The notes below the pieces were generated by a model, which was not told the origin of the DNA, ran no database searches, and worked only from the letters and a program-made list of their open reading frames with translations. DNA of 64,000 nucleotides, taken from positions 1 through 64,000 of the forward strand of contig NZ_AMZQ01000002.1 in the NCBI RefSeq assembly GCF_000313615.1. The letters run 5' to 3'. Both the position numbers and the translations under genes were made by a program. Positions 1-64,000 of the stretch are shown here, piece by piece (position 1 is the first letter of the stretch; each line of letters begins with the position of its first letter). Origin of the DNA: Campylobacter showae CSUNSWCD (GTDB taxonomy: Bacteria > Campylobacterota > Campylobacteria > Campylobacterales > Campylobacteraceae).

Positions 1-155
1 GCCTTTGCTTTGTTTTATTGATGGTATCATAGCATTTTAAACCTTAAATAGCAATACATTTTTCATACAGAGCCAAAAATAATCAAATTTAGCGCGACCT
101 CGATGCAGAGGGGCTTTAATTTATCATTGAGCGTAAAATAAAAATAGGAGTAAAA

Positions 156-767
156 ATGCAAGGCAATAAAAAAATGCAAGATCTTTTTTCGAGTTTAAAC
201 CCAAATGAGGCGACTCAAGAAGAGATAGAAAAATTTATGCAGGGCTTGCTGGAAAACTATGTGCTAGAGGTTACGTGCGAAAAATTCGCTTTTGCAGAGA
301 TCGAAATTTATACGAGTGCGGATAAAAACACCTACAAACGAGTGTCGAGCGCCGGCGACATATTTTTTCATAATTTCGGCTTTGATATCTGTTTTAAGAG
401 CTCAGAAGAGGCCTACAGCGGCGTGCTCGTGCGCTCGCTTTGGCCGCTCGGGCAAGCCGAGCCGATAGTGGGCCCGTGCAGATGTGCGAACTCGATTTTA
501 AATATACGCAAGCCGAATTTAAGTTTTTGTCTTTTAGATGCCAAAGGTTCGCAAGATGCGTCGAAAAATTTTAGCCGTAGAGTGCGTAGAGCCGACTTTG
601 ACGCGAGCGGCAAACCGATAGAGGATTGCGGGCGGCTTACTTCGAGTAAATTTGAAATATGGCTAGCAGAGTCGGGCGAAAAAGAAGCCGAAAAATACAA
701 AAAAGCTATAAACAAATACAAAGACGAAGCAGAAAACGAAAAGTCAACGCCAAATCAGGCGAATTAG
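156..767 (+). CDS. Hypothetical cytosolic protein
   Basis: I do not recognise a named family. The 203-residue product has no signal peptide or membrane segment. Residues about 66-115 carry the most structured part: GDIFFHNFGFDICF, then GVLVRSLWPLG, then a PCRCANSIL segment. This looks like alternating beta strands of a compact domain rather than a spurious frame. The last 35 residues are Lys/Glu-rich and probably helical. The ATG is preceded by TAGGAG at 145-150, which supports the start. It stands alone and faces the convergent amidohydrolase gene. Function unknown. Confidence 0.7.
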   Translation: MQGNKKMQDLFSSLNPNEATQEEIEKFMQGLLENYVLEVTCEKFAFAEIEIYTSADKNTYKRVSSAGDIFFHNFGFDICFKSSEEAYSGVLVRSLWPLGQAEPIVGPCRCANSILNIRKPNLSFCLLDAKGSQDASKNFSRRVRRADFDASGKPIEDCGRLTSSKFEIWLAESGEKEAEKYKKAINKYKDEAENEKSTPNQAN

Positions 768-915
768 CAAAATTTATCTTAAGGCGGCGGCTTAAATTTG
801 CTTTTTATGCACTTAAAATTTGAAATTTAAGCTACGCTGTCAAAATACGCGCAAATTTTACCAGCTGTGCTCAAATTTGCACGCCCGCCATTAAATTTGC
901 GCCCCAAATCCAAGC

Positions 916-2307
916 TCAAATTTCCCCTAAAATCTTTTTATAATTGCTAAAAATCGGCGAATCCTCGCCAAAATATAAACTCATCGCGCGCACGTAGCGA
1001 TCGAGCGGATTTTGGATGTGGTTTAGCGCCAGGCGCTCGCGAAACGGCAGGTCGTAGCTGCTTAAAATCACGCTAAAAGGCACGGGAAAATCGGTGCCAA
1101 AAAGGATTTTGTCGTGGATTTGCGTTTGGGTTTTTAGGTGCGGCAGGATGCGGGCCTTGTTTATGCAAAGCAGCGCCGAAACGTCCGCGTAAAGCCCGTC
1201 AAACTCGCGCAGCCAACCAAGCAGCGTGAAGTAGTTCGCGCCGAATTTCTCGGGATCCCTGGATAGCGCCGTGAAAGCGCCGTCGCTTGAGGCGCCCATG
1301 TGAGCGCAGACGATGCGGCAACCAAGATTTAGCGGGGATTTTAGCTGTTCGATGCTCTCAAGCGCCTTGTTTGACGCCAGCGAGTTTTCGTCGCCCACGT
1401 GGATCACCAGCGGCAGCCCAAGTTCGCTAAGTAGCCTAAAATAGGGCTCGTAGCGCTTGTCGTTTAGATCCGTCTCCCAGTACGAGTGTAGCAGCTTGCC
1501 GCCTTTAAAGCCCATTTTATGGTACTTCTCGATCAAATTTAGCGCGTCTTTGCGGTTTGGATTTACGCTAAAAAACGGCACGACTTCGCTCGGATTTTGC
1601 TCGTAAAAGGCAAAAACATCTTCGTTTGAGGCGCAGACAGTTTTGTCCTTGTGCACGAGATTTCCGCTCTCGTCAAATTTCGCATCGACGCCAAAAACCA
1701 CGGATTTTTGGACGAAATTTGAGCTTTTAATCAGCCGCGCGAAGTTGCTTTTGTAGCCCTCAAAGCCGTTTTTTATAAGCTCGCGCCTGTTTATGTCGAA
1801 TTTCTTAGCGAAAAACGCGAGTGCGAGTTTGTCGTAAAATCGGTCGAATTTCACGTCCGCGCTAAGCAGATGCGAGTGGATATCGACGGTTTTTATCTGC
1901 GTTAAATTTGAGTTTTGTAGGCTCTCCGAGTCGCTTTCGTTAAATTTGCCCGATGAAAATCCGCTTAAATTTGCATCGCTTGCCGTCAAATTTACGCTAG
2001 TTTGAGCGCGTTTGCTTTCGGCGCAAATTTGACTCGCCGCGTTTTGGCGTGACCCGAGCGTTTTTGACGTGGCCGTCTGGCTAGCTCTCAAATTTGAGCT
2101 CAAATTTATCCGCGCGTTTTGCTCGGTTAAATTTGCGCGAGTTAAATTTGTTTCCGTTTTACGAGTCAAATTTAAGCCAGAGTTTGCGGCACTCGCGCAA
2201 GCTGAGTTTGGCGTCAAATTTGCCGCCGTTTTTTCGTCCCTCAAATTTACACCAAAACCAAAAGCCTCCAAACCCTTGCCTGCGCTATAAAAACCATCTC
2301 GAAACAT
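916..2307 (-). CDS. Amidohydrolase family protein (Amidohydro_2) with repeat-rich N-terminal extension
   Basis: Metal-dependent hydrolase of the TIM-barrel amidohydrolase superfamily; substrate unknown. The barrel starts near residue 140 with VDIHSH (the HxH metal pair) and continues with LPLVIHVGDE, IVCAHMGASS and ILFGTDFPVP, which supply the expected His ligands and the catalytic Asp. Residues 1-140 are unlike the family: low complexity, with about ten NL[T/S/R] tripeptides encoded by AAATTT-cored DNA repeats. The chosen start is the ATG at 2307 behind an AAGGAGAAACG-type ribosome site. The gene is divergent from the merR gene and probably single. The barrel assignment is secure; whether the extension is translated into stable protein is not. 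Confidence 0.85.
   Translation of the reverse strand: MFRDGFYSAGKGLEAFGFGVNLRDEKTAANLTPNSACASAANSGLNLTRKTETNLTRANLTEQNARINLSSNLRASQTATSKTLGSRQNAASQICAESKRAQTSVNLTASDANLSGFSSGKFNESDSESLQNSNLTQIKTVDIHSHLLSADVKFDRFYDKLALAFFAKKFDINRRELIKNGFEGYKSNFARLIKSSNFVQKSVVFGVDAKFDESGNLVHKDKTVCASNEDVFAFYEQNPSEVVPFFSVNPNRKDALNLIEKYHKMGFKGGKLLHSYWETDLNDKRYEPYFRLLSELGLPLVIHVGDENSLASNKALESIEQLKSPLNLGCRIVCAHMGASSDGAFTALSRDPEKFGANYFTLLGWLREFDGLYADVSALLCINKARILPHLKTQTQIHDKILFGTDFPVPFSVILSSYDLPFRERLALNHIQNPLDRYVRAMSLYFGEDSPIFSNYKKILGEI
1905..2256. repeat. Cluster of twelve AAATTT-cored repeats inside a coding region
   Basis: Between about 1905 and 2256 the hexamer AAATTT occurs twelve times, mostly as CAAATTT or AAATTTG. 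The spacing keeps the amidohydrolase frame open, and on the minus strand each copy is read as AAT-TTG, giving Asn-Leu. Similar but shorter clusters lie at 17213-17350 and 57225-57262, and single copies occur in most intergenic gaps. Confidence 0.85.
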
Positions 2308-2437
2308 CGTTTCTCCTTTTTAAAATTTGGCGAAATCATAGCCTAAATTTTAAAAAGTGTCAAGTGATGCTTTACGCTTTATGATTTTCTAAGCTAAATT
2401 TGAGTAATATTTCGTCAAATTTAACGAAAGGAAAGAG

Positions 2438-3088
2438 ATGAGCTACAAGATGAGCGAGCTTTGCGAACTATCGCAAACGCCCAAATCAACGATACTCTTT
2501 TACGTCAAGGAGGGGCTTTTGCCGGAGCCCGTGAAGGTAAAAGATAACGTCCATCAGTACGGCGAGGACACGCTTTTGATGCTAAATTTCATCAAATACG
2601 TCCAGAGCAACTTCCACCTCAGTCTAAAGGAGGTCAAGGCGCTCACGCAGCAAAAGGGCTTTAGCTTTAAACGCTGCTACGAGGCGCTTTTTGATTCGCT
2701 AGATACATTTATGGGGTCAAATTTCGCCCAGACGCTAAGCGCTAGCGAGGCGTGTGAGAGGCTGGGTATCAGCCAGGCCGAGCTAGATAAATTTATCGAG
2801 GAGGGATTTATCTTTATGCGAGGGGGCAAGCTAACGCAAAAAGAGGTCGAGATCCTACAAATCGCACTAGAAACCCAAAAGAGCGAGCGCGGGCGGGAAA
2901 TTTTACAGACCTATATAAATTTAGCCAAACAAACGGCCAAAATAGAAGCCGAGTGCGCGCGTGAAATTTACGCGAAAGCAAAGGATAAAAACGCTGCCTT
3001 AAAGCTCGTTTTTGATAATATCTTGATTTTAAAACCATATATCTTAAATTTTCACACCTTTGATGCCTACAAAAAGGAGAACAAATGA
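2438..3088 (+). CDS. MerR family transcriptional regulator
   Basis: DNA-binding regulator of 216 residues. The N-terminus (YKMSELCELSQTPKSTILFYVKEGLL) is the winged helix-turn-helix of MerR proteins, followed by a coiled-coil-like stretch and a second HTH-like segment (SEACERLGISQAELDKFIEEGFI, about residues 105-127). There is no Cys-rich metal site at the C-terminus, so a metal effector is unlikely. Its ATG follows GGAAAGAG. The TGA stop overlaps the ATG of the downstream acyltransferase fusion by four bases (ATGA), so the two are translationally coupled. It probably controls that phospholipid gene, which is an inference from position. Confidence 0.88.
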   Translation: MSYKMSELCELSQTPKSTILFYVKEGLLPEPVKVKDNVHQYGEDTLLMLNFIKYVQSNFHLSLKEVKALTQQKGFSFKRCYEALFDSLDTFMGSNFAQTLSASEACERLGISQAELDKFIEEGFIFMRGGKLTQKEVEILQIALETQKSERGREILQTYINLAKQTAKIEAECAREIYAKAKDKNAALKLVFDNILILKPYILNFHTFDAYKKENK

Positions 3089-6000: not shown

Positions 6001-6567
6001 GGCACGATAATAAGAATCTGCGACCCTACAAGCCTAGAAAAGCTAGAAAACGGGCAAGCCGGCCTAATCCTAATCGGCGGCCATCAGGTGATGAAGGGCT
6101 ACTATCTAGATGAGGAACGCACGAAAGAGGCGATCGTCGAGCTAGACGGCGTGCGCTACTATAACAGCGGCGACATCGGATTTTTGGACGAGGCTGGCTT
6201 TTTAACCATCACGGATAGGCTCTCTCGCTTTGCTAAAATCGGCGGCGAGATGATCAGCCTAGGCGCGCTCGAGGCTCAAATTTCAGCCGTATTGGGCGAT
6301 GAGGCGACATTTGTGTGCACCAATGTCGCCGACGAGAAAAAGGGCGAGCAAGTCGTCATGCTCTTTAGCGGCGAGATGAGCGAGGAGGACGTGGCCGCGC
6401 GCATCAGGGCTTCTGCGATACCGTCCATCATGCAGCCTTCAAAGATTTTTAAAGTCGAGGCCGTACCTGTGCTAGGAACGGGCAAAGTGGACTTTAAATC
6501 AAGTAAAAAACTAGCGGCCCAGTTGGTTGCTGGCGAGGGAAATTTGGGCACGGCGGAGGAAGCTTAA
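3085..6567 (+). CDS. aas: LplT-type transporter / PlsC acyltransferase / acyl-ACP synthetase fusion (Aas-like)
   Basis: Single 1160-residue protein joining three activities of lysophospholipid recycling. Residues about 1-410 form a 12-helix MFS transporter like LplT. Residues about 430-620 are a PlsC acyltransferase with the HX4D box (NHISWID, about 451) and FPEGHIS (about 521). Residues about 660-1150 are an AMP-binding acyl-ACP synthetase with the phosphate loop FSSGSEGTPKG (about 793-803) and YGTTETSP (about 934). In enterobacteria LplT and Aas are separate proteins that import lysophosphatidylethanolamine and re-acylate it at the inner membrane; fusions are known elsewhere. Coupled to the upstream merR gene by an ATGA overlap. 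Confidence 0.9.
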   Translation: MKGVFSVRGFLPFLVVMFINAVVDLGHKITIQNILFKSIEDENLQIILTSLVNLLILLPYIMLFSVSGFLNDKFSRTRITRYAAASEILLTLFITVSYFCGWFYVAFGTTLLLAVQSAIYSPAKYGLIKKIVGGEKLGAANGIVQAFTIVAILLGSFVFSAIFESYAAQSTDAGEMIKSVWFIGAILFVCSVAETIFTFKIPFFEATDAGLKFDAKKYFKLGYLKENTKHIFNNKNAFLCTLGLSVFWAVAQLVIAVFPAHYKAMSADNNVMVVQAILAVSTIGLVAGSALAGSYSKNHIEMGIVPFGALGLFASLLMFAQGSSAAFMTLASFLFGFSGGIFIVPLNANIQFFTSEEQMGRTLAGSNFIQNIFMAAFLLLAMAFSIFAVSTPEIFVITSFSVLICALATIKYLPHLFARLLIMPFFRIGYTINVDGVENIPQKGGVLLLGNHISWIDWAVLQMASPRPIRFAMHKSFYEIWYLKWLLNLFDVIPIGAGASKSALEKIRECLDAGDVVALFPEGHISYNGQIDEFAHGYEIAASDTNSVIVPFYLRGLWGSSFSRAQKYYQKISRKVDGKRAIRVSFGAPLAPETKAPQVHEKVVELSFFSWAEYLKTLEPMQFSWLKHAKADLFKRSMVDSTGADLSNLKVIATVLVFLSKFKFAFLKERHVGVILPSSVMGSIINLMLFIRGKVSVNLNYTLSEQNLIGCADKAKLKSIITSRQFIAKLKARGFELEESLKGRLIYLEDVAQGISKADKICAMLKAVLMPRWLLELIYFRDVRIDDEAAILFSSGSEGTPKGIVLTHKNIMANIKQISEIINTGGNDVILASLPIFHSFGLTAATFFPLSEGIATAHVPDPTDAFAVGKMVAKYHATIMFGTSTFFRLYTKNKKLNPLMFSTIRYAIAGAEKLNAVVKREFKMKFGIEIYEGYGTTETSPVVSVNTANVLEPEFFKELVFSKEGSVGLPTAGTIIRICDPTSLEKLENGQAGLILIGGHQVMKGYYLDEERTKEAIVELDGVRYYNSGDIGFLDEAGFLTITDRLSRFAKIGGEMISLGALEAQISAVLGDEATFVCTNVADEKKGEQVVMLFSGEMSEEDVAARIRASAIPSIMQPSKIFKVEAVPVLGTGKVDFKSSKKLAAQLVAGEGNLGTAEEA

Positions 6568-6582
6568 ATTTACGCTATGAAA

Positions 6583-6615
6583 GGCAAATTTGGCGGCTAG
6601 GTCGTCAAATTTGCC
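6583..6615. terminator. Inverted CAAATTT pair after aas
   Basis: GGCAAATTTG (6583-6592) and CAAATTTGCC (6606-6615) form a perfect 10-bp stem with a 13-base loop, just after the aas stop. There is no clean T-tract, so it may be a weak terminator built from two opposed copies of the CAAATTTG repeat. Confidence 0.45.
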
Positions 6616-6701
6616 TATCGTCTAAGACTGGCAAAAGACCCCTGCAAAATTAAATTTTAAAACGACGATACCCGCTTATAAACACCTAAGTTTAATCACA
6701 A

Positions 6702-6707
6702 TATAAT
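6702..6707 (+). promoter_or_regulatory. Probable sigma-70 -10 box
   Basis: TATAAT in an AT-rich stretch, 31 bases before the TTG start of the AT-rich hypothetical gene. No clear -35 box is visible, which is common for Campylobacter promoters. Confidence 0.45.
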
Positions 6708-6737
6708 CATAACGAAAATAAAACAATAAGGCGAATT

Positions 6738-11549: not shown

Positions 11550-11551
11550 TT

Positions 11552-37184: not shown

Positions 37185-45825
<8,641 letters not shown>

Positions 45826-47385: not shown

Positions 47386-49464
47386 ATGGCAGATAGAAAA
47401 ACCCCTTTACATATGGTTAGAAACATCGGTATCGCTGCTCACATCGATGCTGGTAAAACTACAACCAGCGAAAGAATTTTGTTCTTTACTGGTATGAGCC
47501 ACAAGATCGGCGAGGTTCACGATGGCGCCGCTACGATGGACTGGATGGAGCAAGAAAAAGAGCGCGGAATCACGATTACGTCTGCGGCGACAACTTGTTT
47601 TTGGAAAGATCACCAGATAAATTTGATCGACACTCCGGGCCACGTTGACTTTACTATCGAAGTTGAGCGTTCTATGCGCGTTCTTGACGGCGCTGTTTCG
47701 GTATTTTGCTCAGTTGGCGGCGTACAGCCTCAGTCTGAGACCGTTTGGAGACAAGCAAATAAATATCACGTCCCAAGAATCGTTTTTGTAAATAAAATGG
47801 ACAGAATCGGCGCAAATTTCTTTAACGTCGAGTCTCAAATCAGAAACCGCCTAAAAGCAAATCCTGTGCCTATTCAAATTCCTATCGGCGCAGAGGATAA
47901 CTTTGGAGGCGTGGTTGATCTCGTTAAGATGAAAGCTTACGTTTGGGAGGATGACAAAAAACCGACCGATTATAAAGAGATAGAAATCCCTGCAGAGGTA
48001 AAAGATAAAGCCGAAGAGTACCGCGCGAAGCTAATCGAAGCGGTTTCTGAAACCGACGATAGCTTGATGGAGAAATTTTTCTCAGGCGAGGAGCTAAGCG
48101 AAGAGGAGATTAAAAAAGGCATTAAAGCAGGCTGCTTAAGAATGACTATAACTCCGATGCTTTGTGGAACAGCATTTAAAAACAAAGGTATCCAACCGTT
48201 GCTTGACGCGGTCGTAGCGTATTTGCCTGCACCGGATGAGATCGAGGCGATCAAAGGCGTTTATGAAGATGGTAGCGAAGTAACGGTAGAAAGCACTGAT
48301 AACGGCGAATTTGCGGCTCTTGCGTTTAAGATTATGACCGACCCATTCGTCGGACAGCTTACCTTTATCCGCGTTTACCGCGGTAGCCTTGAGAGCGGTA
48401 GCTATGCTTATAATACCGTTCAAGACAATAAAGAAAGAATCGGCCGTCTACTAAAAATGCACTCAAATAAACGCGAGGAAATTTCTGTTATTCACGCCGG
48501 CGAGATCGGTGCGGTTGTAGGTCTAAAAAATACCCTAACTGGCGATACGCTAGCTAGCGAAAAAGACAAGGTTATCCTTGAGAAAATGGACTTCCCTGAG
48601 CCGGTTATTAGCGTTGCCGTAGAGCCAAAAACTAAAGCCGACCAAGAAAAAATGGCTATCGCGCTTCAAAAACTAGCTCAAGAAGACCCAAGCTTTAGAG
48701 TAGGCACCGATGAAGAGAGTGGTCAAACTATTATCAGCGGCATGGGCGAGCTTCACCTTGAGATCATCGTGGACAGAATGCTACGCGAATTTAAAGTCGA
48801 TGCCGAAGTAGGTCAACCGCAAGTTGCATACCGCGAGACTATCCGCAAAACCGTCGAGCAAGAGTATAAATATGCTAAGCAATCAGGCGGTCGCGGTCAA
48901 TACGGACACGTATTCTTGCGCCTTGAGCCACTACCTGCAGCTAGCGGATTTGAGTTCGTTAACGACATCAAAGGCGGCGTGGTTCCAAAAGAGTACATCC
49001 CTGCGGTTGAAAAAGGCTGCAAAGAGGCGCTTCAAAACGGCGTACTTGCCGGCTATCCTGTTGAGGACGTTAAAGTTACCCTATTTGACGGTAGCTACCA
49101 CGAAGTTGACTCATCTGAAATGGCATTTAAGCTCGCTGCTTCTATGGGCTTTAAAGAGGGCGCTAGAAAAGCGGGCGCAGTTATCCTTGAACCTATGATG
49201 AAGGTCGAGGTTGAGACACCTGAGGACTATATGGGCGACGTTATCGGCGACTTAAACAAACGCCGCGGTCAGGTAAACTCTATGGATGAGCGCAACGGAA
49301 GCAAGATCATCACGGCTTTCTGCCCGCTAGCCCAGATGTTTGGTTACTCTACTGATCTTCGCTCTATGACGCAAGGTCGCGCGACATATTCTATGGAATT
49401 TGACCACTATGAGGAAGTTCCAAAAAACGTCAGCGAAGAGATTATCAAGAAAAGAAACGGTTAA
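47386..49464 (+). CDS. fusA: Elongation factor G
   Basis: 692-residue translocase GTPase. G1 AHIDAGKTT, switch [22 protein letters not shown], then domains II-V ending [14 protein letters not shown]. Length typical. ATG follows AGAGGAGGCTAGT. Third gene of the str-type operon; tuf is elsewhere (32592). Confidence 0.98.
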
Positions 49465-49934: not shown

Positions 49935-52900
49935 ATGGCAGTAACACAAGCAGAGGTTGCGCAGCTTTACGTGGCGTTATTTAACAGAGCCCCAGAAGGC
50001 GCTGGATTCAAAGCATGGATTAGCTTTGGCCACAACAAAACACAGGCTGAGATAGCTCAATTGATGCTAGAATCTCCGGCAGCTATAGACTACTATGGCG
50101 GCAGAATAGACCAAGATAAAGATTATATAGAGCTTATCTATAAAAATATTCTTGGCAAAGATTATACGCAAGATCCTGATGGTATTAACGCATGGGTTAA
50201 GCACCTTCAGCTAGGTCATTCAAGAGGCGAGACTCTCGTCAAAATATTTGAGGTAGCACAGTCTGCGGCAGCTAAAGCGGCAGATCCAGTTGCAGCTAAA
50301 ATTTTCGAAAATAAGACGGCTATTTCAGCTTATATGGCTGAAAAAATCGCTAACATAGAAACAAGTGTTTCCGGAAGTTATGATTATAAACCGTTTCAGG
50401 AAATTATAAAAACTACGACCGATACGAATTTTGAAGAGCAAAAAGCAAAAATAGACGCTCTTGCCGCTTCTACTTCATACACTCTAACTACTGAGCCAAA
50501 CGATTTAACCGGTGGAGTTGGACAAGATATTTTCAACGCTGTTGCAGACTCATTCATGGGTACAAACACTCTAAAGCCTACAGATAAGATCGACGGCGGT
50601 ATGGGAGAAAATACTCTGAATGTTACCTTGAAAGATAATTTTAACGGTATGACTACGGGGTTTATCAAAAATATAGATAACCTAAATTTAACAAACACCT
50701 CTACAGCTAAAAAGACCTTTAATGCAAGAAATATTGATGGTCTCAAAAAAGTAACTTTAGATGGCGAAAATGGTATAAATTTCATAAATCCTCAAAATTT
50801 AGTCGATTTAACCATTGAGAATCTAAAAAGCAGTACGGAGTCGTTTAAATTAAATTATAACACCGGAACTATCGCTGGCACAAATGATACGCAAAATTTA
50901 ACATTAGATAATGTAAATTTGCATAAAAATGCTATAGATAACGTGGTCGGTGTTGCAGGCACAGGTATAGATATCCCAAATATCGAAAATTTAAACATAA
51001 CTACAAAAGGCGAGAAAAGCACTGTATTTATAAAATCAGGCGACAACACGAACCACTACAAAACTATATCGGTTAAAGGCACTACCGATATTAAACTTAT
51101 GGTGGAAAGCGATCGCTTAGAAAAGGTCGATGCCTCTGCCTTTACTCACAATCTAGAGTATGAATTTAAGCCAAGTGCAAATACGCCTATCGGCGCTACA
51201 AATGTTATAAAAGGCGGTAGCGGTAACGACACTATAAAGCTTGACTTTAAAGACGTAGATGCTACAAATAAAACAAATTTCGATATAGACGGCGGTACTG
51301 GTAAAGATACTCTAAATATCGAAAGATTAAAAGCAAAAGAGAATAAATTTACCGTAAACAACATAGAAAAGGTAAATATACAAAAAGTAGACACCGGTAC
51401 GGCAAATGATACTGCAAGTATAGATTTTGCCGGTTCAGACGTAACGGCTCTTAACACTACAAAAACAAAGAGCAACCTAGTAGTTACAAACTCTACTATA
51501 AAAAGCGTTACGGTAGACAAGCCTGATCCGGAAAATACCGATGTAGCCTCTGGCCCTTACGGTAGAGTCGAGTTTAAAAACGGTTATTTACAAGAGATCA
51601 ATATAACAAACACAATCGATCCGCAAGACGTTAACGGCAACGCAATTATCAATCCTGTTACTCCTGGACTACGCAGTCAGGTTACGGCTTATGTAGCTGC
51701 AGACGAGAGCGAAAGAGTAACGGTAAACGTAGATAAAAACGTATATGCTCAAAAGATCGGCGGAGCCGGTGCTAGCGCTGCTTGGGTAGATGGTAACAAA
51801 ATGCACGCAAACGAAGGCATAGGTATCATAGCTCCAAAAGCTAAAGACATAACCGTAAATTTCAACTCTATCGGCACATATGGAAATAGCGTAGCTAACA
51901 ATACGGGTATGAGCCTTACAAACATAGCTGTTCATGATTTATCTTCTACAGTTCCTATGCAGGCAAAGACTCTTGAAAAACTAACCGTAAATTCAAAGTC
52001 AAGCATCCTAAGTAATCTAGATGCAACGTTCTTTGAAAAGTTAAAAGTTTTCAATATCAACACTGATAACAACTTTGAAGCTTACAGCAATAAACAGTTT
52101 AACGATATCGAGCAGATCAACGCTAGAGGTCTTGCGTCAAATAACATTAAGACCGGTAATATTTATTTCATAGATAACGTGATCGGTGAAGGCACTACGA
52201 CAGCCGCTACGGCTACTCAGTCTATAGCTATCACTGCTGAGCACCTTAATTCGTTTAAAGCAAATAAAGGCGTATTTACGAAGGGTTCTATTGCCGTGCA
52301 ATTAAACGATATCGCCGGCAACGTAGAGATTGTAAACGGTATAAACCCTATAACTACTACTGCAAACAACCCGACTCCCGGTTCTAATATGCAGAACTTT
52401 TTTACCCATACTTCTACGACTTACAACTTCCCATACGCAACAGCCGATAACTCTATCGTTACCGACGCTACATTTAGCGTAAACGGCAATAATATCAACA
52501 ATCTTTTGATAGGTAATATATCCGCAAGAGATATAGAGATCAATCCAGGCAATGCAAGAGGTAACGTCAGCATCGCAAGCGGCGGCGGAGAGTATACTAC
52601 TCTTTCTTCGTACGCAAACTCGGTAGGTAAGGTCGGTAGCGACAAGACTATAAACAATACTATAGATATGTCTCAAGTTGCAGGTAGATATTTTATAGGC
52701 GAGCTATTTGGTCAAAATATCAATTTCAAGGGAGCCGTATTTAACGCTCCTACATATTATAGCGATCAGATAGATACCGGTTTGTATAGCGACCACGACA
52801 GCTGGAGTGGTCACAATTACTCCACTCCTAATGCTATCAAGGTAAATTTCGGCGGGGCTAGAGCAAATCAAGACGTCGTAAACCTTAATGTTAAAGGCGT

Positions 52901-55169
52901 TCAAACCGGCGAAAAAACAGACGTATACGCTAAATTTGACGACGGTACGGCTTCTCCCGGGGATCTTAAAAAATTCGTCGCGAAAGGCGAGGATATCAAC
53001 CTTATCGTAAATCCTAAATTTAACGCTGCAACTACTTCGAAACTAGAAACGATAGATCTAAGCGAAGTAAAAGCGGGATCTACTTCATGGGTAAACCTGT
53101 CTACCGTTCCTTATAGCACGGATACGACGAGCCATAGCGGATCTACTAATTCAGGTTATAGCAGCTGGCACAATAGGACCGACAATCAAGGTTTCGGTAA
53201 TGCAGGCCCATCAAACCTAAAAAATCCTCTTTCGGATAACTACGGCACGGCGTCTACAGCTAACTTTAAGGCTACTTCAACATTACCTGATTTTGGTGCT
53301 AGAACAGGTGTTACGGGTAATGACATCCCTAACTTTACCGGCACTAAGTGGAACCATAAAAATGTCGACGGGTCATCTACATATTTAGGAAGACCGTCTA
53401 CGGATCTAGTAAGAGAAAAGAGCGACCTAGGTGCAAATGCTCATACTATGCTTAAAGAGATCAAAGGTACGCAAGGTAACGACGTAGTATTGCTAGCTAA
53501 TGATATGGCTGCAGCTAACGGCACCGGCAAACTAAACGTAGATCTAGGCGACGGAGACGATATCATCCACGTAGGTACTTTAGCGGCAAACACCGAGATC
53601 ATCATCGACGGCGGCAAAGGACGCGATCTGTTTGACGTAAGTAGAGCTAAAACCGATACTACGGTAAGTAAAATCGTAACTATCAAAAATATCGAGGCCG
53701 GAGACAAGGTTAAGCTAGCGGATTATTTCGCACACGGCTACGATCCAAGGGATCCAAGCGGCGACAGCAAAGACTCTAACTGGGGCGCCGTAAAAGCATA
53801 CGGTAGCGACAAAGTTCAATTCTACACAGGCAACCACCCTGATGCTAGCACTAGCGCCGCTGCGCACGGTCAGACCTTTAGCACGACTAGTGGTACCGCT
53901 AATGCAAATAGCACTACTCCTCCGCTAACTATAACGGGAACAACTTCCGGTAATGCTACAAGCACGGTGTACGGCTACAATACCCCAACCGGAACGGCAG
54001 CTTTCGAGGAAAATCTCCAACAAGGAACCACTACCGGTCACTGGGGCGGCGACAGATATCAGTACAAGGCTAACCACGGCGACTTCGCTTGGCAAACGGG
54101 AAATGCTACTGCTGCGGCGGCAGGCACCAATATCGCCATAGACGCAAGCGGTAATCGCGGCTTTAATAATTCTACTAGCCCATTCTACGAGCCTGGTAAG
54201 GCGGCTGTAAAAGCTACGTTGTCTACGGACGTAGCCGGTGCGGATGCCGGACAAGCTCTACCTACCGGTTGGACGCAAGGAACTCCTTCTACTCCTCTTG
54301 ATCCTAACGGTTTGGCTTGGGCAACATGGTCGGTAGCGCAAGTCGGCGGCGGTACGGTAAGCTACTATGCAAACAACGGCACTGCTACGCCTTTCACGGG
54401 TCTTACCATGAAAAAGCAAGGAAATCTATTCTTTGATACGGCTAAACATACTGAAGTGGCTGGAAGAATGTATTACAATACATATGATGACGTTAACCAG
54501 ACTGCAGGCGGCGGAACCCAGCAGGGCACTCCAGTGACAGGCACAAACGGTCAGGTGGTTATCCAAAACTCCGGCGTAGCAAGTACTAAGTCAGCTAGCG
54601 CAGGTACTATAACTGCTAATAACCTAATAAAGAGCGTAATCGTTCAAACGTCTACTAATAGTGATAAATATACCGGCGGCATAGCCTCTAACGATCAGAG
54701 CTTCTATGACGCTCACAACACTATTAAAGTAACGGTTAACTCTAAGCTTACCGATTTGAGTACGGTAGCCGGCCTAGATACCTTGATTCAGGCGGTAAAC
54801 CATGCTATAGCAAACAATAGACTATGGGGTAATGACTCGACGTACTGGCAAGCAAATTATACGTATTTCAGCAAATTTGCAGATGCCAATAGTACTAGCA
54901 TGACCGGCGATAACGTAATTATGGGCTATACTAGATATATTAGCGCTAGCGGAAACTACGACGCTCACAACGATAGACTATATGCGTTCTCTTGGAAGGG
55001 CGATACATATCTAGTTTATGATAAGCAAGCCGTAGCATATAACGGTAGCAATACCATAGGCGCTGAGGATACCATCGTAAGACTTGCGGGCGTAAACCTA
55101 GAAAACCTAAAATACTCTGTTGATCCTGAAAAAGGTACTATTACTATCGATAGTCTTGATCAGGCTTAA
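49935..55169 (+). CDS. S-layer/RTX-type surface protein with DUF4214 domain
   Basis: 1744-residue acidic, Thr/Asn/Gly-rich protein with no signal peptide and, on reading, no Cys. These traits fit type I secretion and S-layer proteins such as Crs of C. rectus. Residues about 5-110 form a DUF4214 domain (VAQLYVALFNRAPEGAGFKAW; YIELIYKNILGKDY). RTX-like calcium nonapeptides occur singly rather than in a tandem block: GGVGQDIF (about 194), DGGMGENTL (220), KGGSGNDTI (426), DGGTGKDTL (453), LGDGDDIIH (1204) and DGGKGRDLF (1225). The C-terminus EDTIVRLAGVNLENLKY is probably the secretion signal. No ABC exporter is nearby. The gene is monocistronic with a strong terminator. Confidence 0.85.
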   Translation: MAVTQAEVAQLYVALFNRAPEGAGFKAWISFGHNKTQAEIAQLMLESPAAIDYYGGRIDQDKDYIELIYKNILGKDYTQDPDGINAWVKHLQLGHSRGETLVKIFEVAQSAAAKAADPVAAKIFENKTAISAYMAEKIANIETSVSGSYDYKPFQEIIKTTTDTNFEEQKAKIDALAASTSYTLTTEPNDLTGGVGQDIFNAVADSFMGTNTLKPTDKIDGGMGENTLNVTLKDNFNGMTTGFIKNIDNLNLTNTSTAKKTFNARNIDGLKKVTLDGENGINFINPQNLVDLTIENLKSSTESFKLNYNTGTIAGTNDTQNLTLDNVNLHKNAIDNVVGVAGTGIDIPNIENLNITTKGEKSTVFIKSGDNTNHYKTISVKGTTDIKLMVESDRLEKVDASAFTHNLEYEFKPSANTPIGATNVIKGGSGNDTIKLDFKDVDATNKTNFDIDGGTGKDTLNIERLKAKENKFTVNNIEKVNIQKVDTGTANDTASIDFAGSDVTALNTTKTKSNLVVTNSTIKSVTVDKPDPENTDVASGPYGRVEFKNGYLQEINITNTIDPQDVNGNAIINPVTPGLRSQVTAYVAADESERVTVNVDKNVYAQKIGGAGASAAWVDGNKMHANEGIGIIAPKAKDITVNFNSIGTYGNSVANNTGMSLTNIAVHDLSSTVPMQAKTLEKLTVNSKSSILSNLDATFFEKLKVFNINTDNNFEAYSNKQFNDIEQINARGLASNNIKTGNIYFIDNVIGEGTTTAATATQSIAITAEHLNSFKANKGVFTKGSIAVQLNDIAGNVEIVNGINPITTTANNPTPGSNMQNFFTHTSTTYNFPYATADNSIVTDATFSVNGNNINNLLIGNISARDIEINPGNARGNVSIASGGGEYTTLSSYANSVGKVGSDKTINNTIDMSQVAGRYFIGELFGQNINFKGAVFNAPTYYSDQIDTGLYSDHDSWSGHNYSTPNAIKVNFGGARANQDVVNLNVKGVQTGEKTDVYAKFDDGTASPGDLKKFVAKGEDINLIVNPKFNAATTSKLETIDLSEVKAGSTSWVNLSTVPYSTDTTSHSGSTNSGYSSWHNRTDNQGFGNAGPSNLKNPLSDNYGTASTANFKATSTLPDFGARTGVTGNDIPNFTGTKWNHKNVDGSSTYLGRPSTDLVREKSDLGANAHTMLKEIKGTQGNDVVLLANDMAAANGTGKLNVDLGDGDDIIHVGTLAANTEIIIDGGKGRDLFDVSRAKTDTTVSKIVTIKNIEAGDKVKLADYFAHGYDPRDPSGDSKDSNWGAVKAYGSDKVQFYTGNHPDASTSAAAHGQTFSTTSGTANANSTTPPLTITGTTSGNATSTVYGYNTPTGTAAFEENLQQGTTTGHWGGDRYQYKANHGDFAWQTGNATAAAAGTNIAIDASGNRGFNNSTSPFYEPGKAAVKATLSTDVAGADAGQALPTGWTQGTPSTPLDPNGLAWATWSVAQVGGGTVSYYANNGTATPFTGLTMKKQGNLFFDTAKHTEVAGRMYYNTYDDVNQTAGGGTQQGTPVTGTNGQVVIQNSGVASTKSASAGTITANNLIKSVIVQTSTNSDKYTGGIASNDQSFYDAHNTIKVTVNSKLTDLSTVAGLDTLIQAVNHAIANNRLWGNDSTYWQANYTYFSKFADANSTSMTGDNVIMGYTRYISASGNYDAHNDRLYAFSWKGDTYLVYDKQAVAYNGSNTIGAEDTIVRLAGVNLENLKYSVDPEKGTITIDSLDQA

Positions 55170-58624: not shown

Positions 58625-58968
58625 GGGTCATAATCGTACTTTTAGGCGTGCTTGCCGCGATCGCGATATTTAGCGTGAGCGACGAAAAGCTAAGCAAAAA
58701 GGCGAAATTTATCATCACTTTTTCGGTGATTTTTGTCGCGGCGGCGCTGTACTTTTACGAGACCAGGCTGGAAAGCGAACAAGGCAAAAGGCTGGAGCTG
58801 GTCGCGCTTTTTAATCAAGGCAAAACTCTAAAATGCGGAAATTTTGACGTAAATAACACTAAATTTAACTATGAGTTCGGCACTTCCTCTTTTGTCGCAA
58901 AACGCGCGGCAAAGGAGCTAAACAGCGTCAAGATCGCGCTTGATGGTTGCGAATTTAAAGGCGAATAA
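58621..58968 (+). CDS. Small membrane protein between murC and mutS2
   Basis: 115 residues with two membrane helices (about 2-17 and 30-47), then a periplasmic or cytosolic tail with two Cys (LKCGNFDVNNTKFNYEFGTSS; DGCEFKGE). No family recognised, although the tail looks like a short beta-rich module. Overlaps murC by four bases and abuts mutS2 with no gap. Confidence 0.75.
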   Translation: MRVIIVLLGVLAAIAIFSVSDEKLSKKAKFIITFSVIFVAAALYFYETRLESEQGKRLELVALFNQGKTLKCGNFDVNNTKFNYEFGTSSFVAKRAAKELNSVKIALDGCEFKGE

Positions 58969-61323
58969 TTGCGAAATTTTAAAGATAATCAAAATTTGAC
59001 CCAAGGCGGAGTTTGGGAGGCGGACGGGCGAGAAAACAGCGTCTCGCGCGAGCAAAGAAACGGCGACATTTTTGACACTACAGGACACCGCGAACAAAAA
59101 GAATTTACAAACGCGGAAGGCTTTGAACGGCTTATAAAAATTTTAGACCTACAAGGCTATATGGAGCGGTTTAACTCCTTTTTAGCGCGCCCAAAGCCGC
59201 TTTTTATGGCGGGCGACAGCAAGTTGCATTATGAAAAAATTTTAGAACTCTCGCAAAAGCAGTTTGATGCGCCCTCGCCCGCTCAAAATCTAGACGACGC
59301 GCTCATTCGCCTTAGCAAGCAAGCCACGCTGCATGTGAGCGAGATTTTTGAGTTTGCTAAGATTATTAGTTACTTTACCTACCTAAAAACGCTCAAATTT
59401 GAGGGCAAACTAGGCGAGTGGCTCGCTAAAATCGAGATCCCGCAGCCGATGCTAAAGCTCGCAAACTCGTTTGATAAAAACGGCGAGCTAAAAGACGAAG
59501 TGGACGAGCGCCTAGGCAGTATCAGAGACGCGTTTAGCGCCAAAAGAGCGCAAATAGACGCCGATCTGCGCCGCCTCATCTACTCAAAATCCATCACGCC
59601 ATACCTCGTTGATACGCAGGTGCACTACATCAGCTCCGTCGAGGCGCTGCTCGTGCGCGGCGGGTTTAACCATGTGCTAAAGGGCACGGTCGTGGCTAGA
59701 AGCTCTGGCGGATACTTCTATGTCGCGCCCGAAAACATCCAAAAACTCAAAAAAGAGCAAAGCGAGCTGCTGGATAAAAAAGAGGAAATCGTCTATGAGC
59801 ACTGCAAAATTTTTAGCTCCGCGATGCACAAGGCCTTGCCGTTTTTAAAATTTATAAACGGTGCGTTTGACGTGTTTGACGCCTACTGCGCGCGGGTCTT
59901 TACGGCTAAAAGCGCAGATTTTGAGTTCGTGCTACCAAGCGGCGGGTCAAATTTAAAACTAGCAAATTTCGCCCACCCGGCGCTAAAAAATCCAAAAAGC
60001 ATCAGCATAGACTTTAGTAAAAAGGTACTGCTAATCACCGGCGTAAACGCAGGCGGTAAATCGATGCTTCTAAAATCGCTGATAGCCGCAGCCTTCCTAG
60101 CCAAATACCTGCTGCCGATGTGCATAAACGCGCAAAAATCGCAGATCGGAAATTTCAAAGAATTTGACGCCATCATCGAAGATCCGCAAAACGTAAAAAA
60201 CGACATCTCGACCTTTGCCGGGCGTATGGTGCATTTTTCTAAGCTTTTTACGAAGAAAAATCTGCTCATCGGAGTCGATGAGATTGAGCTCGGAACGGAC
60301 TTTGAGGAAGCGGCGAGCCTGTATGGCGTGATGATCGAGCGGCTGATGAGTCAGGATATCAAGATGATCATCACCACCCACCACAAGCGCCTTGCTATGC
60401 TACTAGCTAAAAACCCGGACGTCGAGCTGGTTGCCGCGCTATACGACGAGGAAAACTCGCGGCCTAAATTTGAGTTTTTAAAAGGTACGATCGGCAAATC
60501 GTATGCCTTTGAGACCGCGGCTAGATATGGCATCGCGGCAAATTTGGTCGCGCAGGCGAAAAAAATCTACGGCGAAGACAAAGAAAATTTAAACGAAATC
60601 ATCACAAAGACGCTGAATTTAGAAGTACAGCTCAAAGAAAAGCTCGAAAGTGCGGAGAAAAAAGAGCAAAAGCTAGACTCCCTAATCGAAAATTTAAAAG
60701 AGCAAAAAGAGCGCGCCGAGGCCGAGCAGCACGAGGTTATAATGCGGCTAGAGCGGGAGTATTTTAAGGCGATAAACGAGGCTAGACGCGCGATAAATTT
60801 AGACGACACAAAAGAAAAACAGCGCGCCCTAAACCGCGCAAACGAGGCCAAACGCGCCGTGCAAAAACCAGAAATCTCTGCCCCGCCCCAGCTAAAGGTC
60901 GGCGACCGCGTAAAATACGGTAAGATAAAGGGCGTCGTCGCAAGTCTGGGGAAAAACGACGCCGTGATACAAACCGACAACGTGAGCATGCGCGTGCCGA
61001 TAAATCAGCTAAAAATCAGCGGCGAAATGCCAGCACCCGCGAAAAAATCAGGCATAAATCTAAGCGTGCAAAAGCCGCAAAACGCTAGCGTCACGCTCGA
61101 TCTACACGGACTGCGCGCGGACGAAGCGGTGCAAAAGCTCGATAAATTTATCTCAGATAGCCTAGTGATGGGCTTTGACGAGGTGCAGGTGTATCACGGC
61201 ATCGGCACGGGCAAGCTCGCCTACGCGGTCAAAAATTTCTTGCGCGAGCATCCGAGCGTGAAGGAGTTTTTCGACGCGCCGGCGGGGCAGGGGGGATTTG
61301 GAGCGCAGATAGTGCGATTGTGA
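58969..61323 (+). CDS. mutS2: MutS2 endonuclease/ATPase
   Basis: 784 residues. Walker A ITGVNAGGKSMLLKS (about 356-370), the D-E pair in LIGVDEIELGTDFEEAAS (about 428), a long coiled coil (about 540-640), a KOW-like domain (VGDRVKYGKIKGVVASLGKND) and a C-terminal Smr nuclease domain with LDLHGLRADEA and HGIGTGKLA. MutS2 suppresses recombination and, in other bacteria, rescues collided ribosomes. Start is TTG directly after the upstream stop. Residues 1-48 are a non-conserved Gln/Glu/Asn-rich extension before the usual LIKILDLQGYMERF start. Confidence 0.95.
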   Translation: MRNFKDNQNLTQGGVWEADGRENSVSREQRNGDIFDTTGHREQKEFTNAEGFERLIKILDLQGYMERFNSFLARPKPLFMAGDSKLHYEKILELSQKQFDAPSPAQNLDDALIRLSKQATLHVSEIFEFAKIISYFTYLKTLKFEGKLGEWLAKIEIPQPMLKLANSFDKNGELKDEVDERLGSIRDAFSAKRAQIDADLRRLIYSKSITPYLVDTQVHYISSVEALLVRGGFNHVLKGTVVARSSGGYFYVAPENIQKLKKEQSELLDKKEEIVYEHCKIFSSAMHKALPFLKFINGAFDVFDAYCARVFTAKSADFEFVLPSGGSNLKLANFAHPALKNPKSISIDFSKKVLLITGVNAGGKSMLLKSLIAAAFLAKYLLPMCINAQKSQIGNFKEFDAIIEDPQNVKNDISTFAGRMVHFSKLFTKKNLLIGVDEIELGTDFEEAASLYGVMIERLMSQDIKMIITTHHKRLAMLLAKNPDVELVAALYDEENSRPKFEFLKGTIGKSYAFETAARYGIAANLVAQAKKIYGEDKENLNEIITKTLNLEVQLKEKLESAEKKEQKLDSLIENLKEQKERAEAEQHEVIMRLEREYFKAINEARRAINLDDTKEKQRALNRANEAKRAVQKPEISAPPQLKVGDRVKYGKIKGVVASLGKNDAVIQTDNVSMRVPINQLKISGEMPAPAKKSGINLSVQKPQNASVTLDLHGLRADEAVQKLDKFISDSLVMGFDEVQVYHGIGTGKLAYAVKNFLREHPSVKEFFDAPAGQGGFGAQIVRL

Positions 61324-61335
61324 GTTCGGAGATTG

Positions 61336-61490
61336 GCGGCTCGTCTCGCGAGCGCTTTTCCGAGATTTCGCAAAATTTTCGCTCCGCAGGCTATATGCCT
61401 AGCGCACGCTCAATTTTGCTTCTTCTGCTTGCAGCTGCGAGCTTGCGAAGCAGAAAACTCGAAAAATCATCTCGCGATACTTCGCCTTAT
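61336..61490. repeat. Dispersed palindromic element, copy B
   Basis: Begins 13 bases after the mutS2 stop with GCGGCTCGTCTCGCGAG and ends with ATCATCTCGCGATACTTCGCCTT. Outer boxes match copy A at 27146-27270 (GCTCGTCT...GAG.GCTTTT on the left; CTC.AAAATCATCTC...ATACTTCGCCTT on the right). The core CAAAATTTT/CAATTTTG and a central AGGC-TATAT-GCCT hairpin repeat the same plan with different sequence. Confidence 0.65.
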
Positions 61491-61538
61491 CGTTTTTGCG
61501 ATCAAAATTTGAAGTCAAATTTGTAAATTTGAGTTGCT

Positions 61539-61768
61539 GAGACCCTCACCTTGAAAATGCAAATTTAAACCTGCGCATAGCGCAGCAACCTCTCACGTCG
61601 TAGGGGATAGGGGATCGTTAAGGGGGAAGGGAGCTCTTTTGCTTCAGCTACGCTTCGCAACTGCAAAGCAGAGCGCAATTCAAGCCCCTTCCCCCTTAAC
61701 AAGAAAGATTAAGTACACAGTACTAAATTTGATAAAACCAAATTTAGCACCTTAAAGGTGCAGGTCTC
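61539..61768. repeat. Compound palindrome, about 230 bases
   Basis: Outer arms GAGACCCTCACCTT (61539-61552) and AAGGTGCAGGTCTC (61755-61768) match at 12 of 14 positions. Inner arms GTTAAGGGGGAAGGG (61618-61632) and CCCTTCCCCCTTAAC (61687-61701) are a perfect 15-bp stem. A smaller stem CTGCGC-ATA-GCGCAG lies at 61572-61586. No open frame or transposase. It could be a MITE, a structured RNA, or a double terminator. Confidence 0.7.
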
Positions 61769-61909
61769 GGTGGGTAAATTTCCAAATCCCAAAGTCAAAT
61801 TTGCATGCTTCATTAAAAATTAAATCCGCTTTTCGCGTCAAATTTAACGACCTCAAAATCTCTCAAATTTAGGTAAAATCCAAAATACAAAAATGAAAAA
61901 AGGACAAAG

Positions 61910-62503
61910 ATGAACGCATTTTTGCAGGGCTTGCTGCTGGGTTTTAGCGCGGCGGTACCGCTAGGACCCGTAAACGTGATGATAATGAGCACGGCGGTAA
62001 GGTCGTTTTGGGCGGCGTTTGCTATCGGGCTCGGCGCTATGAGCGCGGACGTGGCGTATCTGTTGCTTTTAGCGTTTGGCGTGCTTGAGTATTTGCAGGG
62101 CGAAACGGTAGAAAAAATCATCGGGATTTTTGGATTTTGTTATCTAGCCTACATCTCCTACGCCATATTTAAAAGCGCAAACAAGCCTATAATGGCGGAC
62201 GCGCAGGGCGGTGAAGTAAAATTTAGCAAAAACTACGCAAAAGGCCTTTTTGTCACGCTTGCAAACCCGTACACCGTTGGATTTTGGCTCAGCGTGGCTG
62301 GCTTTGCGAAAAGTTTTGAAAACGCGGGCGCTGTCGTAGCGGGGCTAGTAGCGGCGATATTTATCTGGATCGTTTCTATGCCGTTTGCCGTGCATAAAAG
62401 CGCGAAATTTATCTCGCAAAACCTTGCAAAATTGCTAAACTACGTGTGCGCGGTCATTTTGCTGGGTTTTGCTTTCTTTTTACTTTATAAACTATTTTTA
62501 TAA
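61910..62503 (+). CDS. LysE/RhtB family exporter
   Basis: 197 residues with about six membrane helices. N-terminal FLQGLLLGFSAAVPLGPVNVMIM is the LysE signature, and SADVAYLLLLAFGV and LANPYTVGFWLSVAG are also typical. Exports amino acids or related small molecules; substrate not predictable. ATG follows AAAGGACAAAG. Single gene. Confidence 0.88.
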   Translation: MNAFLQGLLLGFSAAVPLGPVNVMIMSTAVRSFWAAFAIGLGAMSADVAYLLLLAFGVLEYLQGETVEKIIGIFGFCYLAYISYAIFKSANKPIMADAQGGEVKFSKNYAKGLFVTLANPYTVGFWLSVAGFAKSFENAGAVVAGLVAAIFIWIVSMPFAVHKSAKFISQNLAKLLNYVCAVILLGFAFFLLYKLFL

Positions 62504-62571
62504 AATTTAGCTTTTATAATTAACTTAAGTAAATAATGATAAAATGAGAGTAATTTTTTTAAAGAAGTTTT

Positions 62572-64000
62572 ATGCAAAATTCGTATTTTAAAAAATCAAC
62601 AATGCAGTTTATTATTGTGCCGATTATAGTACTTGTGATTTGTGCATGCTTGGCGATGTGTTTTATATTTTATAAAAAACTGCAGGACTCTTCTAATGAT
62701 ATCTCAAACGTCGATATACAGAACAAATCCGAATACTATATGAATATACTACAAATGATCTATAAGGACATAGCAAAGGGCAATATAGATGAGTTCCAAA
62801 GATATAGCGAAGTCGCAAAATCTATTCCTTCGTGGATAGTAAAGCAAACCGGTGAAAAAAACGAGCTCGTTGCTTTGGCCAGCTCGCAACAGCCAAATTT
62901 GATTGGAGAAAATTTGCCTTATAATTTTTGCGGAATGAACTCTAGTGCACACATGGAGTTAGCGCGTAACGGCGTTTATAAAAGTGTAAAACTGATTCCA
63001 GATAACAAGGCTGAAATTTGTTACTTTAAAAAAATAGACGGTGCAATTATCGGTTATAATATGGTTCAGGGCGTTAAAATTTCAGGTTTTGACGATCCGC
63101 TTTTCATGCAATGGCTTATAGTAAATATGAAAAACACTTTTATCGTAACAAGCGTAATGGTGTTTATTTGTATTTTTCAGTATCTTCTTTTTTATAAAAG
63201 TATAAGAAGTAATCAAATCTCGCTTGTAAAAACTAATGCTAAGCTTGCTGCTAATAATACCGAGATGCAAAAGCGTCTTTATAGCGACGCATTGACCGGC
63301 TTGCCAAATAAAACGGCTTTGGAGCGTGATTTGGAGACGATGAAAAGTCCTAAAATTATCGTTGTAGATATCGATGAGTTTAGAAAGATGAATAACTACT
63401 TTGGCGTAGTAGTTTGCGATCAAATTCTGGTACGCATGACTCAAATTTCACAAAAATTCGCAAACGATAATAATATGGCCGTTTATCGCGTGGGTCCCGA
63501 TCAATTTGCATTTGTCGAGGATGCTATGCTATTTATCGATAGGTATGAAGATCTGGCGACCGAGCTTTTGGATAATATCAAGGGTTTAATTGTCGGCATA
63601 GCTGCGCCAGATGGCGAGCAAATCGAGATAGAGATTCATTGCACGGTCGGTTTTGCGCTTGATGAAACAAATACCCTTAAAAAGGCAATGACGGCGCTAG
63701 AGTTTGCCAAGCAAAACGGAAAGGATTATTTTTGTTACTTTAAAAATATAGATGATACTCCACAATATGCAGAGCAGATTACGCGATCAAATATGATACG
63801 AAATGCTATCGTAAATGACAAGATTGTGCCGTTTTATCAACCGATATTTAATAAAGAAAAGCAAATCGTAAAGCATGAGGCGCTAATCCGTATTCAAAAT
63901 AGTAATGAAATCATATCGCCGAGCGTGTTTCTGGAGGTTTCAAAGCGCATTAAGCGTTACACGGACATAGAAAAAATGTTGATCGAAAAAAGCTTTAAAC
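62572..64000 (+). CDS. Membrane GGDEF-EAL protein with degenerate GGDEF, incomplete at window edge
   Basis: Open to the end of the window (476 residues visible). Two membrane helices (about 12-33 and 188-208) flank a periplasmic sensor region of about 150 residues. The GGDEF domain starts at DALTGLPNKTALERDL (about 240), but its signature reads GPDQF (about 307) instead of GGDEF, so cyclase activity is doubtful. The EAL domain begins with VPFYQPIFN and has the intact EALIR (about 434). It probably degrades or binds cyclic-di-GMP; the catalytic Glu and Asp residues further on lie outside the window. Confidence 0.88.
   Translation, partial: MQNSYFKKSTMQFIIVPIIVLVICACLAMCFIFYKKLQDSSNDISNVDIQNKSEYYMNILQMIYKDIAKGNIDEFQRYSEVAKSIPSWIVKQTGEKNELVALASSQQPNLIGENLPYNFCGMNSSAHMELARNGVYKSVKLIPDNKAEICYFKKIDGAIIGYNMVQGVKISGFDDPLFMQWLIVNMKNTFIVTSVMVFICIFQYLLFYKSIRSNQISLVKTNAKLAANNTEMQKRLYSDALTGLPNKTALERDLETMKSPKIIVVDIDEFRKMNNYFGVVVCDQILVRMTQISQKFANDNNMAVYRVGPDQFAFVEDAMLFIDRYEDLATELLDNIKGLIVGIAAPDGEQIEIEIHCTVGFALDETNTLKKAMTALEFAKQNGKDYFCYFKNIDDTPQYAEQITRSNMIRNAIVNDKIVPFYQPIFNKEKQIVKHEALIRIQNSNEIISPSVFLEVSKRIKRYTDIEKMLIEKSFK

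Follow-up and report, generated by a model that had tools for sequence, protein, structure and literature searches.

The AAATTT excess of Campylobacter showae and its probable relation to the RAATTY site of the CtsM methyltransferase

In Campylobacter jejuni, the site RAATTY is methylated by M.CjeFI and M.CjeNI (PMC3526280) and is reported in methylome papers to be the commonest motif of this species. CtsM, a conserved orphan adenine methyltransferase, has been named as the RAATTY enzyme (product RA-m6A-TTY), and DNA uptake by C. jejuni requires methylation (PMC8468864, which prints the motif as RATTY, and PMC10046745). The accessible parts of further papers report RAATTY methylation in C. coli (PMC4687069), in C. 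lari (PMC12679398), and, by the same orphan family of enzymes, in six Spirochaetaceae (PMC4752239). Here we analyze positions 1 to 64,000 of contig NZ_AMZQ01000002.1 of Campylobacter showae CSUNSWCD (the window), in which the palindromic hexamer AAATTT, one form of RAATTY, is in large excess.

Like the C. jejuni uptake system, C. showae has an orthologous D12-class methyltransferase (59-60% identical to the C. jejuni and C. coli members), the same RAATTY words, and ComEC. Unlike the C. showae genome, which at 45% GC carries AAATTT at 4.7 times expectation, C. jejuni stretches are modestly enriched (AAATTT 1.4-1.7-fold and GAATTT 1.6-2.2-fold, in an AT-rich genome), and the RAATTY densities of the two are similar. 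In their available text, the C. jejuni papers describe RAATTY as frequent and do not describe cross-species enrichment, dialects, or a GC-independent density; the literature searched, with partial coverage, contained no report on AAATTT or RAATTY enrichment across Campylobacter.

By analogy, the nearest functional parallel is probably the set of uptake-sequence dialects of the Neisseriaceae (PMC3630211), where a short word is likewise in great genome-wide excess and the variants of related species share a core. The Neisseria words, as described there, are 10-12 bases long and bound by ComP, whereas the word considered here is palindromic, has six bases, is associated with a methyltransferase, and occurs about seven times per kb. 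The nearest genomic parallel is the set of highly iterated palindromes of cyanobacteria (PMC4390886), which combine an over-represented palindrome, an orphan methyltransferase, and exceptional genomes with another palindrome. In the cyanobacteria, the new word is reported to have arrived with a new methyltransferase (PMC4390886), whereas both Campylobacter words discussed below are predicted to match the degenerate site of CtsM. The available main text of PMC4390886 and PMC3630211 does not name Campylobacter.

The AAATTT excess and its unit

The window holds 395 copies of AAATTT, compared with 81 (standard deviation 8.3, maximum 101) in 100 dinucleotide-preserving shuffles and 88 expected under an order-2 Markov model, and its z-score is the highest among all hexamers. 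The whole genome of the strain (2.12 Mb in 23 contigs; denoted G000 below, where G-numbers are sampled genomes, g-numbers genera, and L-numbers sequence stretches) contains 14,517 copies of AAATTT and 4,637 of the reversed control TTTAAA. These data confirm that the excess is real and genome-wide. A sequence-only reading of this stretch had claimed that the word lies far above hexamer expectation both within and between genes; this claim holds, also against the second-order model that the reading had named as its test.

Counts of A-runs followed by T-runs peak at exactly A3T3 (232 runs, against 51 of A2T2 and 14 of A4T4), and no peak is seen for runs in the reverse order (T3A3, 48). The flanks of AAATTT lean to YAAATTTR, yet they carry less than 0.1 bit per base. 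The word first proposed for recognition, CAAATTTG, is found 38 times in the window against 2.5-3.0 expected, and 1,383 times in the genome against 32 for its reversed form. Under the order-2 Markov model, the enrichment of TAAATTTA (50 vs 4.1) equals that of CAAATTTG (38 vs 3.0). From the exact A3T3 core, the uninformative flanks, and the equal enrichment of TAAATTTA, we conclude that the unit is the hexamer AAATTT, and the proposal of CAAATTTG as the recognition word falls. Known uptake words are 9-12 bases long. AAATTT shares with the words of Neisseria and Haemophilus a genome-wide excess of a short word over Markov expectation and differs from them in that they are 9-12 bases long, non-palindromic, and informative in their flanks, whereas its own core is a 6-base palindrome.

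The excess was shown to be independent of codons and amino acids. In 90 kb of coding DNA (open reading frames, ORFs, of at least 90 residues), the three frames hold 149, 122, and 202 copies, compared with 105, 18, and 27 after within-gene synonymous codon shuffling, a loss of 68% of the coding copies; intergenic DNA holds 191 copies against 56 expected. When compared with three relatives at ∼91-93% identity, AAATTT was kept in 575 of 667 coding comparisons (86%, vs 64% for all other hexamers) and in 107 of 129 intergenic ones (83% vs 70%). Synonymous changes within the word numbered 73, whereas identical codons outside the word predict 179; among 456 hexamers, whose median Mantel-Haenszel odds ratio is 0.82, AAATTT ranks sixth with 0.32. 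This effect is partly non-specific, because over half of all words have an odds ratio below 1. The parts of the window that do not align to the three relatives (8.3 kb) are nearly as rich in AAATTT as the rest (observed/expected ratio, O/E, 3.8 vs 4.8), which speaks against a restriction of the word to old DNA.

METHYLTRANSFERASE: CtsM and RAATTY sites across Campylobacter

Ten NAATTN words were compared in 20 sampled genomes with CtsM, 17 of them outside genus g7, and the clearly enriched words in Campylobacter are the RAATTY forms. In 13 of the 17 genomes, AAATTT stands at 1.66-5.9 times and GAATTT at 1.25-3.6 times expectation; in G048 and G043, these values are 1.2 and 1.5-2.1. Two genomes, G040 and G065, have GAATTC at ∼20 times expectation, with GAATTT at 1.8 and AAATTT at 0.5-0.7, and GAATTC is mostly unenriched elsewhere (0.4-2.0). 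TAATTA, CAATTG, CAATTA, AAATTA, AAATTG, and GAATTG do not exceed 1.2 in the 17 genomes. Whole-genome counts of GAATTC are 4,256 in G040 and 4,455 in G065 (control word, 102 and 103) and range from 29 to 841 in the other 99 genomes of the family survey.

The total density of RAATTY is unrelated to base composition. In a sample of 50 Campylobacter genomes spanning GC 0.28-0.475, it averages 8.68 per kb (standard deviation 2.3, range 5.3-14.1) and has a Spearman rho of -0.01 with GC, compared with -0.73 and -0.75 for the control words YAATTR and YTTAAR in the same genomes; from composition alone, the expected density would fall from 4.1 to 1.2 over that span. These samples are 10-104 kb long, and for 33 of 54 genomes they consist solely of the stretch surrounding ctsM; some named loci may duplicate sampled genomes, and G338 was included without a CtsM test of its own. 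The four g7 genomes among the 54 were kept out of the regression, and with 3.6-5.9 sites per kb they stand at 0.9-1.5 times what composition predicts. Other families of the order, represented by 19 genomes, average 3.4 RAATTY per kb with a rho of -0.88 over a GC span (0.25-0.57) wider than that of Campylobacter, and the 13 genomes among them at GC 0.27-0.48 give -0.74. Whole-genome counts in 22 genomes gave 8.36 per kb (standard deviation 1.55, range 6.4-13.6; genome sizes rounded except for G000). Because the density is unrelated to GC, the excess in the window looks like what a genome of 45% GC needs to match the density of its AT-rich relatives.

The C. showae ctsM lies at G000:C19:3859-4947, and its product scores 632 bits to the CtsM profile (A1). 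Genes within the surrounding 3.7 kb are recA, a menaquinone-synthesis gene (VitK2_biosynth), and a Bac_export_3 gene; no restriction gene was found in this neighborhood. The recA gene is directly behind ctsM on the same strand (L020:3-1094 and 1207-2397, minus strand), an arrangement that did not recur at any of 63 further ctsM loci, of which several are short.

A strong CtsM orthologue was found in 81 of 101 family genomes, that is, in all those drawn from genera g1-g5 and g7, and nine genomes outside the 81 have distant homologues only (both surveys, of the family and of the order, sampled larger groups evenly). Of the 81 genomes with CtsM, 50 have AAATTT at two or more times the frequency of the reversed word; none of the 20 without CtsM does. 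CtsM is thus associated with the excess and not sufficient for it. As with the cyanobacterial palindromes, the excess tracks an orphan methyltransferase, with g7 as the exception; the top word is AAATTT and not the HIP1 sequence GCGATCGC. Four comparative findings support the proposed connection between AAATTT and the site of RAATTY methylation, namely the word set, the association with CtsM, the density unrelated to GC, and the GAATTC genomes, and on these grounds AAATTT is probably this lineage's preferred form of RAATTY, linked to CtsM.

Two features were considered as determinants of the word. The residue after the DPPYN motif of CtsM is Q in 87 of 90 sequences and E in both GAATTC genomes, but G018 (g7) also has E and shows no GAATTC excess, so that we do not propose this residue as the switch; a second set of CtsM proteins has Q in 46 of 49 (six of its 55 loci gave no protein by the search pattern). 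ComEC (PF03772) is matched in all 101 family genomes, in C. showae at G000:C9:26197-26967. The match at G043:C2:83556-84158 is the sole best match of the 101 with several stops, and the AAATTT excess of G043 is small; G048 and G099 are low too without such stops, so that no link between an interrupted ComEC and low AAATTT is drawn.

Other observations were made in these surveys. Homologues of CtsM with 52-58% identity occur in Akkermansia, Treponema, Lachnospiraceae, and others (L083-L149), with AAATTT below expectation nearby. The high AAATTT/TTTAAA ratio of G144, from family f14 of the order, reflects a deficit of TTTAAA (6 vs 34), its AAATTT count being just 57 against 42.5; hexamers enriched in this genome (L150-L152) include GATCGC (77 vs 25) and CGATCG (55 vs 24), which resemble the cyanobacterial HIP1 word. 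In genus g5 (G005, G017, G071, G081), CTTAAG has 0-2 copies per genome of 1.5-1.6 Mb, a near-total avoidance that suggests a restriction system. The top hexamer of G048 (g2; L034-L036) is CTATAG (43 vs 14).

Features of the window

The features discussed in this section are collected in Table 1. The sequence-only reading had singled out a cluster of twelve copies within about 350 bases, which is present. When the window's copies were redistributed at random, with coding and intergenic strata kept apart, 59 of 2,000 trials reached 12 per 350 bases, compared with 3 of 2,000 when only coding copies were moved; the cluster, first taken as ordinary from 100 trials, is therefore unusual. The part of the ORF that holds it, ahead of the recognized domain, may be weakly constrained.

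Opposed copies had also been said to form hairpins after genes, by analogy with uptake sequences that pair up as terminators. A genuine hairpin does follow the ORF that ends at 6567, with perfect arms of 11 bases (-26 kcal/mol, z -7.4), and it has no terminator-like match. Among 136 close pairs in 104 kb, the stem is extended by at least 3 bases in eight, none with a T-run, so that the terminator role does not stand. Outward pairing was found for 20 of 266 neighboring copies (7.5%, vs 2.3% at random; two related genomes pooled), and some hairpins between neighbors may be real.

The region at 32-54 kb, which holds tuf, rpoB, rpoC, fusA, and a large DUF4214 protein, was considered as a word-poor island. 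Because all of its genes except tuf (2 copies vs 1.5) exceed their own synonymous shuffles, we read its low AAATTT density as coding constraint. The large ORF downstream of fusA (49935-55169) has 1,744 residues with the DUF4214 domain near its N terminus and perhaps encodes a surface protein.

Table 1. Positions of features in the 64-kb window (AAATTT counts are given against synonymous shuffles unless stated)
Feature	Positions	Strand	Comment
395 copies of palindromic AAATTT, coding and intergenic	1..64000	.	Counts against shuffles and Markov model
ORF with Amidohydro_2 domain (residues 217-410)	916..2307	-	16 AAATTT vs 3.7
Twelve AAATTT in 345 bases, inside the amidohydrolase-like ORF, ahead of the recognized domain	1904..2248	.	
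Hairpin with one CAAATTTG per arm (6585-6592, 6606-6613), directly 3' of the ORF ending at 6567	6577..6621	+	No T-run
rpoB	37188..41324	+	Low AAATTT density, yet 14 vs 3.9
rpoC	41284..45825	+	10 AAATTT vs 2.2
fusA (elongation factor G)	47386..49464	+	4 AAATTT vs 0.7

Explanations for the excess and their significance

C. showae CtsM is predicted to methylate AAATTT sites in its own species as well. If competent cells take up or recombine DNA by way of methylated RAATTY sites, as uptake in C. jejuni requires, donor fragments rich in these sites would win more often, and AAATTT would accumulate and be maintained, in the manner of the Neisseria and Haemophilus uptake sequences. The form in excess differs among lineages: AAATTT here, AAATTT together with GAATTT in several others, and GAATTC in G040 and G065. 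Either CtsM or whatever reads its mark might determine such dialects. We lean narrowly toward methylation-gated uptake of self DNA as the force that keeps AAATTT abundant. The broader proposal of a methylation-gated uptake language with dialects, in which RAATTY is held at ∼8-9 per kb at any GC via a lineage-preferred form, is tentative and somewhat doubtful.

A number of observations weigh against this account. Classical uptake sequences occur about once per kb, and AAATTT at 7 per kb is far above that. All four g7 genomes have CtsM and ComEC yet show no AAATTT excess, and enrichment is modest in g2, which judged by its named loci includes the C. jejuni clade (median ratio 1.37, with G043, G048, and G099 below 1.2). 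At 55 non-Campylobacter loci of at least 9 kb from other phyla with a CtsM homologue, a RAATTY hexamer was never among the top five, and the pooled AAATTT count was 450 against 737 expected. Some non-RAATTY words are enriched, namely GAATTA in G096 and G092 (1.4-1.5-fold) and in g7 (1.6-1.9-fold) and CAATTG in one stretch of G036 (2.6-fold). One-base changes of AAATTT between relatives, which most often lead to another RAATTY form (32 of 77), weigh neither way, since the control TTTAAA shows a like positional pattern (17 of 37). The genomes are related, so that their counts are not independent. Stretches around Mu-like portal genes in six genomes (6 kb on each side of the match, ends unmapped; six of eight matching genomes) carry 2.8-3.8 AAATTT per kb, compared with 6.0-9.9 in chromosome samples of five, and the contrast in O/E is small in G332 (3.1 vs 3.6), G000 (4.0 vs 4.7), and G350 (2.2 vs 2.4). 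Neighboring copies are helically phased, as described below, and GAATTC in G040 and G065 lies mostly between genes and within longer repeats.

The portal contrast is clear in G028 (O/E 3.0 vs 5.6) and G327 (2.2 vs 5.2). Two C. concisus plasmids have AAATTT at 1.8 and 2.5 times expectation, and a chromosomal stretch from a different strain of that species has it at 5.8 times. The prophage and plasmid densities are consistent with resident DNA being changed slowly, by whatever cause. The C. showae genome has its own Mu-like portal gene at about 111 kb of G000:C9 (L240), near which the AAATTT density is about half that of core samples.

The phasing is relevant to the explanation that A3T3 is favored because of the DNA shape it confers or because nucleoid proteins bind it, independently of methylation. 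Distances of 10-12 bases between neighboring copies occur 31 times against 17 at random and distances of 21-25 bases 51 times against 27, and none of 200 trials reached either number, these distance classes having been picked after inspection of the data. The excess is seen in several other genomes too, and distances pooled over eight genomes peak near 11, 21, 33, and 43, roughly the first four multiples of the helical turn. Together with the preference for exactly A3T3, a symmetric A-tract, this spacing leaves room for a DNA-shape role, and our confidence in both the RAATTY/CtsM link and uptake was slightly lowered because of it. A-tracts tend to lie in helical phase, and we read the phasing of AAATTT as this known tendency: lone A- or T-tracts are phased likewise (more weakly in five of six sets, more strongly in C. 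showae), so that phasing need not belong to AAATTT. A reader that contacts several sites along the same face of the DNA may contribute as well. Selection for shape is improbable given that GAATTT is enriched as well, that G040 and G065 carry GAATTC instead, that A4T4 is rare, and that strong AAATTT excess is found only with CtsM. A mutational, codon, or mismatch-repair bias would be in keeping with a word found both inside and outside coding DNA, prophage stretches included, but such a source is very improbable: synonymous shuffling removes most of the coding copies, existing copies mutate less than matched codons, and a bias is not expected to hold RAATTY at a density unrelated to GC. The mismatch-repair model put forward for cyanobacteria is unlikely to apply here because MutL (PF01119) had no match in 12 of 12 genomes, compared with matches in 11 of 14 control genomes.

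The CtsM and RAATTY evidence is also compatible with the possibility that the sites are kept for another function of CtsM, such as replication timing, chromosome segregation, gene regulation, or recombination. The placement of C. showae ctsM among housekeeping genes suits such a function, though recA is near none of the other loci, and cyanobacterial palindromes track orphan methyltransferases with no uptake role known in the available text of PMC4390886. Against it, the sole function demonstrated for the CtsM mark in the genus, in the available text of PMC8468864 and PMC10046745, is uptake in C. jejuni, and no positional pattern of AAATTT was found beyond an intergenic preference and helical phasing. 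We therefore consider a non-uptake function unlikely. For G040 and G065 alone, the GAATTC excess could be a self-spreading intergenic repeat, TCTAGAATTCC, and not a dialect. There, 266 of 312 GAATTC copies lie between genes, many of them spaced by 8-22 bases within long-flanked palindromic runs, and TCTAGA is enriched in intergenic DNA too (168 vs 26). Within genes, however, GAATTC still exceeds synonymous shuffles threefold (46 vs 15), whereas TCTAGA does not (33 vs 40), and the total RAATTY density of the two genomes is 5.3 and 6.2 per kb despite AAATTT below expectation. A spreading repeat is on this evidence somewhat unlikely as the explanation of the GAATTC excess.

If methylation-gated uptake is the force at work, the methylation-dependent uptake of C. 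jejuni would extend to most of the genus, with its mark on whole genomes. The replacement of AAATTT by GAATTC, the RAATTY density unrelated to GC, and the g7 genomes with the enzyme and no excess offer natural experiments that bear on an old question, whether uptake words come from biased uptake or from selection for another function. Uptake of this kind would help to predict which Campylobacter species exchange DNA. If the dialect proposal is also true, recognition of self DNA would survive large shifts in GC and would keep species apart from one another.

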